Assembly (NCBI GenBank): GCA_017614375.1
Contig: JAGABZ010000013.1
Location: 200,414-264,413, forward strand
Origin: Spirochaetales bacterium
GTDB taxonomy: Bacteria > Spirochaetota > Spirochaetia > Sphaerochaetales > Sphaerochaetaceae
Direction: 5' to 3'
DNA length: 64,000 nt
Positions 41,738-44,616 of this stretch are shown piece by piece. Made by a program: the position numbers and the translations under genes. Below the pieces are notes generated by a model. It was given only the letters and a program-made list of their open reading frames with translations. It was not told the DNA's origin and did not search any database. Positions within the stretch are counted from its first letter, which is position 1; each line of letters begins with the position of its first letter.

Positions 41738-42667
41738 ATGCTTTACACCTTTATCGGAATTCTTGTTGTTGTCGTGCTTGTGATTGCCGCCAACGTGCGC
41801 ATTGTTCCGCAGTCACAGGCTTTTGTAATCGAGAGGCTCGGGGCCTATTCGACCACATGGAACACCGGACTGCATGTAAAGGTGCCGTTCATAGACAGGA
41901 TTGCCAAGCGGGTTTCGCTCAAGGAAAAGGTAATGGACTTCCCGCCGCAGCCGGTAATCACCAAGGATAACGTCACGATGATGATCGATACGGTAGTGTA
42001 CTTCCAGATTACCGACCCGAAGCTTAACGCCTACGGTGTCGAAAGCCCGGTCAGCGCCCTTGAGAACCTCTCGGCAACCACGCTGAGAAACATCATCGGA
42101 GAACTGGAACTGGACCAGACCCTGACCAGCCGCGATGTCATCAACAACAAGATGCGTTCGATCCTGGACGAGGCGACCGACCCGTGGGGAATCAAGGTCA
42201 ACCGCGTCGAGGTCAAGAACATAATTCCGCCGGATGCCATCAAGAACGCGATGGAAAAGCAGATGAGGGCTGAACGCGAGAGACGCGAGTCGATTCTGAT
42301 TGCCGAAGGCCAGAAGCAGAGCGCAATCCTCGTCGCCGAGGGCCAGAAGCAGGCCACTATTCTTGAAGCAGAGGCTCAGAAGCAGTCGACCATCCTCCAC
42401 GCCGAGGCGGAAAAGGAGGCCGCGATTCAAAAGGCTCTGGGACAGGCCAGGGCCATTCTGGAGGTCCAGAAGGCCAAGGCTGACGGTATCCGGATGATCA
42501 AGGAGGCCGGAGCCGACGAGGGGTTCATCAAACTCCGCAGTCTGGAGGCCCTGGAAAAGGCCGCCGACGGTCAGTCGACGAAGATCATCATCCCGTCGGA
42601 TCTCCAGAGCATGGCCGGGGTGGTCACCGCCGTCACCGAGGTGGCAAAGACAGGGAAAAAGGCCTGA
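41738..42667 (+). CDS. SPFH/stomatin-like membrane protein (QmcA type)
   Basis: A 309-residue membrane-anchored scaffold. An N-terminal hydrophobic helix (FIGILVVVVLVIAANV) precedes the SPFH domain (IERLGAYSTTWNTGLHVKVPFIDRI ..., seen in parts). A long Ala/Glu/Gln coiled coil follows, containing repeats of the pattern AEGQKQ-x-IL at about residues 185-225. The tail resembles other stomatins (STKIIIPSDLQSM). It probably forms membrane microdomains with NfeD. AAGGAGGAG lies before the ATG and a terminator follows. Confidence 0.92.
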   Translation: MLYTFIGILVVVVLVIAANVRIVPQSQAFVIERLGAYSTTWNTGLHVKVPFIDRIAKRVSLKEKVMDFPPQPVITKDNVTMMIDTVVYFQITDPKLNAYGVESPVSALENLSATTLRNIIGELELDQTLTSRDVINNKMRSILDEATDPWGIKVNRVEVKNIIPPDAIKNAMEKQMRAERERRESILIAEGQKQSAILVAEGQKQATILEAEAQKQSTILHAEAEKEAAIQKALGQARAILEVQKAKADGIRMIKEAGADEGFIKLRSLEALEKAADGQSTKIIIPSDLQSMAGVVTAVTEVAKTGKKA

Positions 42668-42690
42668 GCCGGTTTCATCATGCTTATCAC

Positions 42691-42717
42691 ACGGCGTCCT
42701 GCGGGGCGCCGTTTTTT
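42691..42717 (+). terminator. nfeD-SPFH terminator
   Basis: ACGGCG ... CGCCGT stem with a nine-base loop and TTTTTT, about 25 bases after the stop. Confidence 0.88.
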
Positions 42718-42808
42718 ATGCTCTTCACGTTTCCCCGGGACTGTGCCAACTGTACCACTGGCCGGGCAACAATTAATCAGAGATTTCCGAATAGGAAGGG
42801 CAAAAAAT

Positions 42809-42907
42809 GAGGTTTTATTCTGAAATTTCAGAATAAGAGTGCCGATTTCGAGGTTTTATTCTGAAATTTCAGAACCAGGGCGCCGATTTCGAAGTTTTAT
42901 TCTGAAA
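42809..42907. repeat. Tandem 41-base repeats carrying an 18-base palindrome
   Basis: Copies begin at 42809, 42850 and 42891 (41-base period). The first two share an identical 24-base core and the third is cut after 17 bases with one change. Each full core contains TTCTGAAA/TTTCAGAA, a perfect palindrome (42817-42834 extends to 18 bases; 42859-42874 is 16). The linkers share GCCGATTTC. It lies in the 587-base gap between the SPFH gene and mgtE, which has no credible gene. Confidence 0.85.
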
Positions 42908-43015
42908 CCGGTGTTTTCGGGCGCGGAGAAAACGTGAAGTGAGCCGTTTGGTCACGCACTCTGAAGTGACTTTCCGGTGTTTTCGGGCGCGGAGAAAACG
43001 TGAAGTGAGCCGTTT
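42908..43015. repeat. Direct repeat, two identical 42-base copies 66 bases apart
   Basis: Positions 42908-42949 and 42974-43015 are identical over 42 bases. Each unit can fold through GTTTTC...GAAAAC around a GC-rich loop. The 24-base spacer holds a smaller inverted repeat GTCA...TGAC. It directly follows the 41-base repeat block and precedes the mgtE promoter. Confidence 0.88.
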
Positions 43016-43024
43016 TTTCGAGGC

Positions 43025-43053
43025 TTGACGAGCCAGGTGATTCGTGGTTTAGT
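43025..43053 (+). promoter_or_regulatory. Probable mgtE promoter
   Basis: TTGACG, 17 bases, TTTAGT. It lies right after the repeat block and would give a leader of about 195 bases, the longest in the window. Confidence 0.5.
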
Positions 43054-43059
43054 GGTTAC

Positions 43060-43254
43060 GGCGCAGACGCGCCTTATCCTTGAAATGTGGAGGCAGCGGA
43101 TAATGGACACAGACCCTCTCAGTAGCTTGTGCCTTTTAGCCGTCCGGCTCAGCCCGGAACCGGTCCGCCGCCGCGCATAGTCACTGCGGTTTTTCCCCGG
43201 TTCCCGACGGGCTGAACTTCGTTCAACGTCGAAAGAGAAACGGAGGAAAAACTT
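43060..43254 (+). promoter_or_regulatory. Long structured 5' leader of mgtE (riboswitch-like, class unknown)
   Basis: About 195 bases without a gene. Helices visible by eye are GGCGC/GCGCC at 43060-43073, TTATCC/GGATAA (43075-43080 with 43098-43103), and a 14-pair stem. In that stem CAGCCCG and GAACCGG (43150-43163) pair with CCGGTTC (43197-43203) and CGGGCTG (43208-43214), with one four-base bulge and a GC-rich hairpin inside. A small TTCG/CGAA hairpin and GGAGG precede the ATG. I could not match it to the M-box or other magnesium leaders. Confidence 0.5.
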
Positions 43255-44616
43255 ATGAAGCAGATCAATCAGGCAATCGAGAAGATTCTGGATGAGCTTC
43301 TGGAGAACGGCAAGATCGGTGCCCTCTCCGAAGTCCTCATCACTATGAACCCCGCCGACGCGGGCATCTACCTGAACAACATCCCCGAAGACGCGCTGGA
43401 CCAGGTCTTTACCAAGATTTCGAGCACCAACGCCGGGCTGCTGTTCGTCGAGCTCGACTTCCCCAAACAGGAGAACCTCGTCACGTTCATGGACGACGAC
43501 CAGCTGAGGGAAATGCTCGACAACATGTTCATAGACGATGTCAGTGCCCTGGTCCGCGACCTTCCCGAGGCCAAGGCGGAGCGGGTGCGCAACCTCCTGG
43601 ACCCGGATACGGCCTCACAGCTGGACATGGTGATGAGCTTCCCCGAGGAAAGCATCGGAAACATCATGAACACCGAGTTCCTCAGCCTGAAGCCCACGAT
43701 GACCATCGCCGACGCGATTGCCAGCATCCGCAGTTCCTCCGGAATGGAAAAGGAGACTGTAAACATCTGCTACGTCACCGACCGCTTCGGACGTCTGGCC
43801 GGCTCGATTCCCCTGAGGACCCTGGTCACGGCTCGTGACGAAAAGATAAAAATCTCCCAGCTGATGGACAGCCGTCCCGTCGCCGTGAACGTAACCGATG
43901 ACCAGGAGGCGGTGTCCCATGTGTTCCGCAAATACGACCTGACCGTCATCCCCGTAGTCGACAAGCAGTACCGCCTGGTCGGTATCACCACCGTCGACGA
44001 CGCCATCGACGTCATCGAGACCGAGGCCACCGAGGATATGCAGAAGATGGCGGCTATCATCCCGACCGAGACGCCGTATCTCAAGACCCCGGTGTTCAGA
44101 ATCTGGCTCAACCGCATCCCCTGGCTGCTGGTCCTGATGATCGGCGCCACGTTCACTGCCAAGGTCATCACCAGCTTTGAAAACGCCCTTTCCTCCTGTG
44201 TCATCCTCACCGCCTTTATCCCGATGCTGATGGACACCGCAGGAAACGCCGGATCGCAGTCATCGGTGACGATAGTCCGCGGCCTGGCCCTGGGCGAGCT
44301 GACCCTGCGCGACTGGTACAAGGTTATGTGGAAAGAGGTCAGGGTGGCGCTGATGTGCGGCGTCGTTCTGATTGTCTGCAACTTCGCCAAGCTGATGCTC
44401 CTCGACCGCGTGACCTCCACCGTGGCCATGACGGTCTGCTTCGCGCTCTTTCTGGCAGTGGTCATCTCGAAGATGATCGGCTCCTTCCTCCCGATTCTGA
44501 TCGGCTCGATCGGACTTGACCCGGCGGTCATGGCCGGACCGATTCTGACGACCATAGTCGATGCCCTGACGTTGCTGATCTACTTCACCGTCGCCACCCA
44601 TCTGCTCGGGTTGTAG
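43255..44616 (+). CDS. mgtE: MgtE magnesium transporter
   Basis: Magnesium-gated Mg2+ channel of the inner membrane. The 453-residue protein has the N-terminal superhelical domain (repeated short helices, residues 1-125) and two CBS domains (about 130-250). A plug helix precedes five membrane helices with the pore signature PMLMDTAGNAGSQSS near residue 325 and a conserved Asp in GLDPAVMAGPI. GGAGG lies eight bases before the ATG. It has a long structured leader and its own terminator. Confidence 0.95.
   Translation: MKQINQAIEKILDELLENGKIGALSEVLITMNPADAGIYLNNIPEDALDQVFTKISSTNAGLLFVELDFPKQENLVTFMDDDQLREMLDNMFIDDVSALVRDLPEAKAERVRNLLDPDTASQLDMVMSFPEESIGNIMNTEFLSLKPTMTIADAIASIRSSSGMEKETVNICYVTDRFGRLAGSIPLRTLVTARDEKIKISQLMDSRPVAVNVTDDQEAVSHVFRKYDLTVIPVVDKQYRLVGITTVDDAIDVIETEATEDMQKMAAIIPTETPYLKTPVFRIWLNRIPWLLVLMIGATFTAKVITSFENALSSCVILTAFIPMLMDTAGNAGSQSSVTIVRGLALGELTLRDWYKVMWKEVRVALMCGVVLIVCNFAKLMLLDRVTSTVAMTVCFALFLAVVISKMIGSFLPILIGSIGLDPAVMAGPILTTIVDALTLLIYFTVATHLLGL

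Follow-up and report, generated by a model that had tools for sequence, protein, structure and literature searches.

Upstream of the magnesium transporter gene mgtE, in the 64,000-nucleotide stretch of DNA that was analysed here (the window), lies a leader of 195 nt, and the question it raises is what this leader does and which signal it may read. The original prediction took it for an unclassified magnesium-responsive leader RNA. Between the end of the preceding gene (42667) and mgtE lie 587 nt of intergenic DNA. CorA was not found in the genome and MgtA gave no match there at E<=1e-150, which makes MgtE the only Mg2+ importer found. The elements that border the leader are:

43025..43053, + strand: promoter-like site TTGACG - 17 nt - TTTAGT, 9 of 12 matches, assigned by consensus
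43060..43073, + strand: hairpin GGCGC-AGAC-GCGCC at the predicted transcript start (fold prediction)
43255..44616, + strand: mgtE, magnesium transporter (TIGR00400, 371 bits, 5.7e-111, over the cut-off)

The position of the promoter-like site makes a transcript start near 43060, where the original prediction had placed it, plausible. Sites with at least 10 of 12 matches precede 35% of the related leader ORFs described below, vs 3.6% of shuffles. The leader itself was confirmed in the sequence, and comparable leaders, widespread in relatives, support a regulatory role. By eye, leaders of the family f1 (e.g. L013, L015, L087 and L004) also have short hairpins of other sequences at the presumed transcript start, among them GGGC-AGAC-GCCC, GGGC-GCAA-GCCC and GTGGC-GGA-GCCAC. 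Just 5' of the promoter-like site there are two identical 42-nt direct repeats (42908-42949 and 42974-43015, 66 nt apart), the core of which is absent elsewhere in the 64-kb window. Further upstream, at 42809-42907, GAGGTTTTATTCTGAAA... occurs in three tandem copies at 41-nt spacing, with the palindromic TTCTGAAATTTCAGAA; these copies may serve as a binding site for a protein or be a repeat element.

Does the leader belong to a known RNA family? It had been described as unclassified, with a covariance-model search against Rfam proposed as the check, and this search agrees: over the whole 64-kb window, Rfam 15 gave no match at gathering scores. The M-box (RF00380) was not among the matches to E<=10 in 42660-43320, where nothing relevant appeared around the leader; it was also absent from 20 Spirochaetia loci, picked because no leader ORF of the kind described below had been found there. 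The suggestion of an M-box-like metal-binding RNA is not supported. The conserved core is instead a probably translated leader ORF with an acidic and proline-containing N-terminus, accompanied by a predicted stem that sequesters a Shine-Dalgarno (SD) sequence. This small ORF (hereafter uORF) had been overlooked in the original prediction:

43089..43093, + strand: SD GGAGG of the uORF, 9 nt before the ATG (sequence)
43103..43180, + strand: uORF of 25 codons plus stop, MDTDPLSSLCLLAVRLSPEPVRRRA, at the same position in both genus relatives

The Mg2+ importer gene is thus preceded by a short, SD-led ORF whose start, MDTDP, has acidic and proline residues among its first codons. The uORFs found at the same place in the two genus relatives, MDADPGSCRGRIMTLIDALFCSAVSF and MDTDPGSCTCGCMNFSTDETLFCRFLL (starting MDADPGSC... 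and MDTDPGSC...), have few nucleotides in common with it and share the same Asp-x-Asp-Pro start.

We defined a uORF as an SD-led frame of 15-45 codons ending before mgtE, and the motif as Asp or Glu followed by Pro or Gly within the first 16 codons. Gene starts come from an automatic SD rule, and for some relatives they may be misplaced. Against a null made of the other genes of the window and of shuffled sequences, the enrichment is strong. An SD-led uORF precedes mgtE in 32 of 46 leaders of the family (3.1% of dinucleotide shuffles) and [DE][PG] lies near its N-terminus in 25 of the 46 (0.35% of shuffles), while the control set of 33 other window genes yielded one uORF and no motif. Among 55 mgtE leaders of other Spirochaetia the uORF was present in 21 and the motif in 15. 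Examples of the peptides in relatives are MESADPGPSRNAFLRKAF, MEAGSSRLFADSDPVPDSRSSVFIR, ...SDDPLSR..., ...DPDSDPDSSKNN... and MNDSDGPGSSQPPEPHLC...; the leader peptides had no match in Pfam or NCBIfam. In nine leaders of one related genus, pN/pS was 0.35 at uORF codons 2-17 vs 0.77 in the 3' part, and the length differences among these nine uORFs amount to whole codons, the indels keeping the frame. In this related cluster, sequence comparison thus points to purifying selection on the leader peptide: its acidic/proline part appears to be kept as peptide, whereas the 3' part drifts as peptide yet keeps its predicted pairing with the SD. A different ORF was seen in L128 and L129 (two species of the small-genome family f19), where an identical SD-led ORF of 35 aa, MESEKLYYFTINILNKKEKTLPIPSGRCSMLLDKL, lies about 55 nt before mgtE; it lacks the early acidic/proline pattern and may be another gene.

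The folding of the leader had been described around a 14-pair stem (43150-43163 with 43197-43214). Sequence and fold checks place this stem exactly there, the pairs being formed by CAGCCCGGAACCGG (43150-43163) with CCGGTTCC (43197-43204) and GGGCTG (43209-43214) around a 4-nt bulge; an extra T43149-A43215 pair extends it to 15. The global minimum fold, however, does not contain it and forms two competing stems instead. On these predictions the leader would consist of four regions with mutually exclusive stems, 2:3 excluding both 1:2 and 3:4:

43080..43102, + strand: region 1, 5' arm of stem 1:2, sequestering the uORF SD (fold prediction, relatives)
43149-43184, + strand: region 2, last uORF codons
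43162..43184, + strand: 3' arm of stem 1:2, part of region 2, last uORF codons (fold prediction, relatives)
43149..43163, + strand: 5' arm of stem 2:3, 15 pairs with 43197-43215 (p=0.002)
43187-43215, + strand: region 3, after the uORF stop codon
43197..43215, + strand: 3' arm of stem 2:3
43187..43199, + strand: 5' arm of stem 3:4, anti-SD GGTTTTTCCCC (fold prediction, p=0.017)
43241..43254, + strand: region 4, mgtE SD CGGAGGAAAAAC, sequestered in predicted stem 3:4 (SD GGAGG at 43242-43246)

In the minimum free energy fold of the window leader the uORF SD is hidden by pairing with the 3' part of the uORF, and predicted stem 3:4, exclusive with 2:3, hides the RBS of the transporter. Against 2000 dinucleotide shuffles the complementarity in the window reached p=0.065 for 1:2, p=0.002 for 2:3 and p=0.017 for 3:4, the regions for the latter two having been defined after the window folds were seen. 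Stem 2:3 is predicted in all three members of the window's genus, at the same place and with a different sequence in both relatives. For the wider comparison leaders were picked by peptide features, not by structure. The combined z for stem 1:2 was -9.8 in 33 family leaders, -6.7 in 22 other Spirochaetia and -7.3 in a set thinned towards one per genus; stem 2:3 gave -2.7 and -7.7, and stem 3:4 -1.2 (not detectable) and -6.5, in the family and the other Spirochaetia, respectively. These Stouffer sums overstate the significance because relatives were treated as independent. The arms of stem 1:2 vary in sequence (GGAGGAC/GTCCTCC, GGAGGAAT/ATTCCTCC, CGCACAAG/CTTGTGCG and TTGCAGAA/TTCTGCAG). As predicted structures, stem 1:2 is therefore general across relatives, and 2:3 and 3:4 are both clear in other Spirochaetia; with 3:4 undetectable family-wide, the output step may differ between genera.

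The leader as a whole is not unusually stable (z=-1.36; 18 of 200 shuffles fold as well), as it would be if the folding were due to chance and had no regulatory role. This explanation is hardly credible in view of the comparative tests, namely the uORF enrichment, the pairing of the stems and the start pattern of clostridial uORFs described below.

We consider it fairly likely that the leader is a translation-coupled leader-ORF attenuator of mgtE, working like the enterobacterial MgtL and MgtQ. Translation of the uORF would start at 43103. In ample Mg2+ the ribosome would pass the Asp-Thr-Asp-Pro codons, reach the stop codon and clear region 2; region 3, being free, would pair with the mgtE SD in stem 3:4 and keep mgtE off, stem 1:2 re-forming between rounds of translation. 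At low Mg2+ the ribosome would stall or fall off at the acidic/proline codons through intrinsic ribosome destabilisation, as for MgtL. The failing ribosomes would keep the start region occupied and leave region 2 bare, so that it could pair with region 3 (stem 2:3), release the mgtE SD and allow the importer to be made. We infer four parts of this scheme: that Mg2+ is the signal, that the ribosome fails at Asp-Pro, which way the switch works, and that control is exerted on translation, not transcription.

To simulate the direction, a ribosome was set on successive uORF codons, all mRNA up to it was masked, and the accessibility of the mgtE SD was taken from equilibrium folding. In the window this accessibility was 0.17 for the free leader, rose to about 0.3 while the ribosome stood at codons 4-11 and was back at 0.17 beyond codon 14. 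When the footprint alone was masked the SD barely opened, from 0.17 to at most 0.29, a value of about 0.32 needing all of the upstream sequence masked. The SD was more open with the ribosome early than late in the ORF in all three genus members, and the early and late values were about 0.55 vs 0.31 in L003 and 0.43 vs 0.18 in L004. Of 56 leaders, 13 had an early value more than 0.05 above the late one and 2 showed the opposite (sign test 0.007). The scan thus fits a model in which early failure turns mgtE on and completion turns it off, with a modest amplitude and a weak general trend. A simpler idea, that masking of region 1 releases the mgtE SD in all leaders, was rejected: over 58 leaders the mean changed from 0.38 to 0.39, so release by this route is not general at equilibrium.

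The same uORF and the same Mg2+ signal could also act on transcription, translation of the ORF exposing or hiding a site for Rho loading, in the manner of Salmonella mgtA and corA. MgtL and CorL do act through Rho (PMC11282234, PMC11552253), and the conservation of stem 1:2 extends to leaders in which 3:4 is not conserved; the stem predicted to hide the mgtE SD, found in the window and strong in the other Spirochaetia, speaks against this output, which we regard as unlikely. An intrinsic terminator, CCGC...GCGGTTTTT (43166-43195), was also considered and rejected. Its stem is short and its loop long, and the terminator scan did not call it; as a shared mechanism it fails since L003 and L004 have no such U-run hairpin, and its action would be in the wrong direction.

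What, then, ties the translation-coupled attenuator to magnesium? The Mg2+ response of the original prediction has indirect support, from the position of the leader before the sole recognised Mg2+ importer and from similar leaders elsewhere before mgtE and the unrelated mgtA. Ribosomal protein L31, which is needed for MgtL sensing (PMC11552253), is present in the genome. Acidic uORFs precede mgtA in two of ten Spirochaetia mgtA leaders examined, in tandem in G116 (MDSDSSHSPTLNDD... and MDPDGRDSHAW...) and singly in G336 (MNDSDGSH...SEDPLPRRF...). In the clostridial genome G592 (L249, 1511-2068) two tandem acidic uORFs, the second being MESGSKRSPEPDGRHRS..., precede the gene of the Mg2+ P-type ATPase, mgtA. 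That two unrelated Mg2+ importers are preceded by leaders of one kind favours Mg2+ as the signal. The tandem acidic ORFs before mgtA in L249 and L265 recall the attenuators that Salmonella mgtCBR is reported to carry in tandem (PMC3641672).

Another cue, such as EF-P status or the general rate of translation, might be sensed by the same uORF. Nascent chains that contain proline are also substrates of EF-P, which favours such a reading; the link of such uORFs to two unrelated Mg2+ importers, with no such link to the other genes of the window, makes it very improbable.

An order of Clostridia (197 genomes), sampled together with a few other Bacillota, has comparable leaders. Under a looser rule, 46 of about 100 mgtE leaders examined in this sample carry uORFs starting like MDAGSS...RS, and a pattern for the MDAGSS-type start was found at 40 places, mostly mgtE leaders, vs 3 for the reversed pattern; L249, with its tandem uORFs before mgtA, is one of the hits. 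The M-box was present in one of 20 clostridial loci (L158), which has no such uORF. Many of the clostridial peptides contain a single acidic residue and few prolines, which counts against the Asp-Pro model. Their codons are also biased: the Ser of Gly-Ser is AGT in 34 of 38 and Arg-Ser is written CGAAGT in 30 of 45, so that the codons as such, or a portion of the RNA, would be under constraint. This choice of Ser and Arg codons points to a constraint on the RNA that the leader-peptide model leaves unexplained. A sarcin-ricin motif (AGUA/GAA) as its source was rejected, not being consistent across leaders. The conservation of GGNAGT...CGAAGT at the nucleotide level, mostly outside predicted stems (e.g. 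in L149, L155, L162 and L206), favours an RNA that itself binds Mg2+ or another ligand, i.e. an undescribed riboswitch in which the ORF is incidental. We hold this to be improbable, since SD, frame, length and acidic/proline residues are conserved with selection at the peptide level, the Asp-x-Asp-Pro start is shared in the window's genus despite the few common nucleotides, and Rfam gave no match.

In enterobacteria the leader ORFs linked to Mg2+ are MgtL (mgtA), CorL (corA) and MgtQ (mgtB), and the ribosome is hindered by acidic/proline codons in MgtL and by acidic codons in MgtQ (PMC11282234, PMC11552253, PMC8092293). MgtL of Salmonella and E. coli resembles our leader in being a short ORF with an acidic/proline N-terminus (its EPDP motif) before a Mg2+ importer gene, and in a stem that hides the SD of its uORF and to which a downstream pairing offers an alternative; this stem A is common to the mgtA and corA leaders (PMC11282234, PMC11552253). 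It differs in its gene, mgtA, and in its Rho output, the window leader preceding not mgtA but the unrelated mgtE, in another phylum and with a predicted stem that hides the SD of the transporter. In MgtQ, located between mgtC and mgtB of Salmonella, acidic residues abort translation and a switch between 1:2 plus 3:4 and 2:3 releases the mgtB RBS hidden by 3:4, the arrangement predicted here (PMC8092293); MgtQ, however, is intergenic in an operon and serves another gene, whereas our leader has its own promoter-like site. CorL of Salmonella and E. coli shares the uORF within an SD-hiding stem and the alternative structures, and is Mg2+-dependent (PMC11552253), but it is Rho-dependent and acts on corA, absent from this genome. 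The M-box likewise precedes mgtE-type Mg2+ transporters and matched the leader at no threshold used. The mgtE motif SRC-65-1, a riboswitch candidate, lies upstream of mgtE with the mgtE SD within a stem, but by its description it is reported only from Thioalkalivibrio and has no leader ORF (PMC11109978). By analogy the window leader is closest to MgtQ in layout and to MgtL in peptide; homology is not claimed.

In the open-licence literature searched, no published mgtE leader peptide was found, and descriptions of Mg2+ sensing by ribosome failure on an acidic/proline leader peptide were found only for enterobacteria; resting on open-licence papers, the novelty is provisional. Within these bounds, we think there is a reasonable probability that the leaders of Spirochaetota and Bacillota form a hitherto undescribed class of Mg2+-sensing leader ORFs that spans the two phyla, has an acidic plus Pro/Gly-Ser start and an SD-hiding stem around the ORF, and acts in single or tandem copies on mgtE and, in some genomes, on mgtA. 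It would be a counterpart of MgtL and MgtQ outside the enterobacteria and an alternative to the M-box. Since leaders of this type are found before Mg2+ importer genes in numerous spirochaetes and clostridia, the ease with which a ribosome traverses a short peptide is probably what these bacteria use to sense magnesium. If this is true for their mgtE genes, it would be a general mode of Mg2+ sensing that may have arisen repeatedly, and would explain the Mg2+ importer genes that lack an M-box, while the leaders supply many natural peptide variants from which to learn what makes ribosomes fail at low Mg2+.
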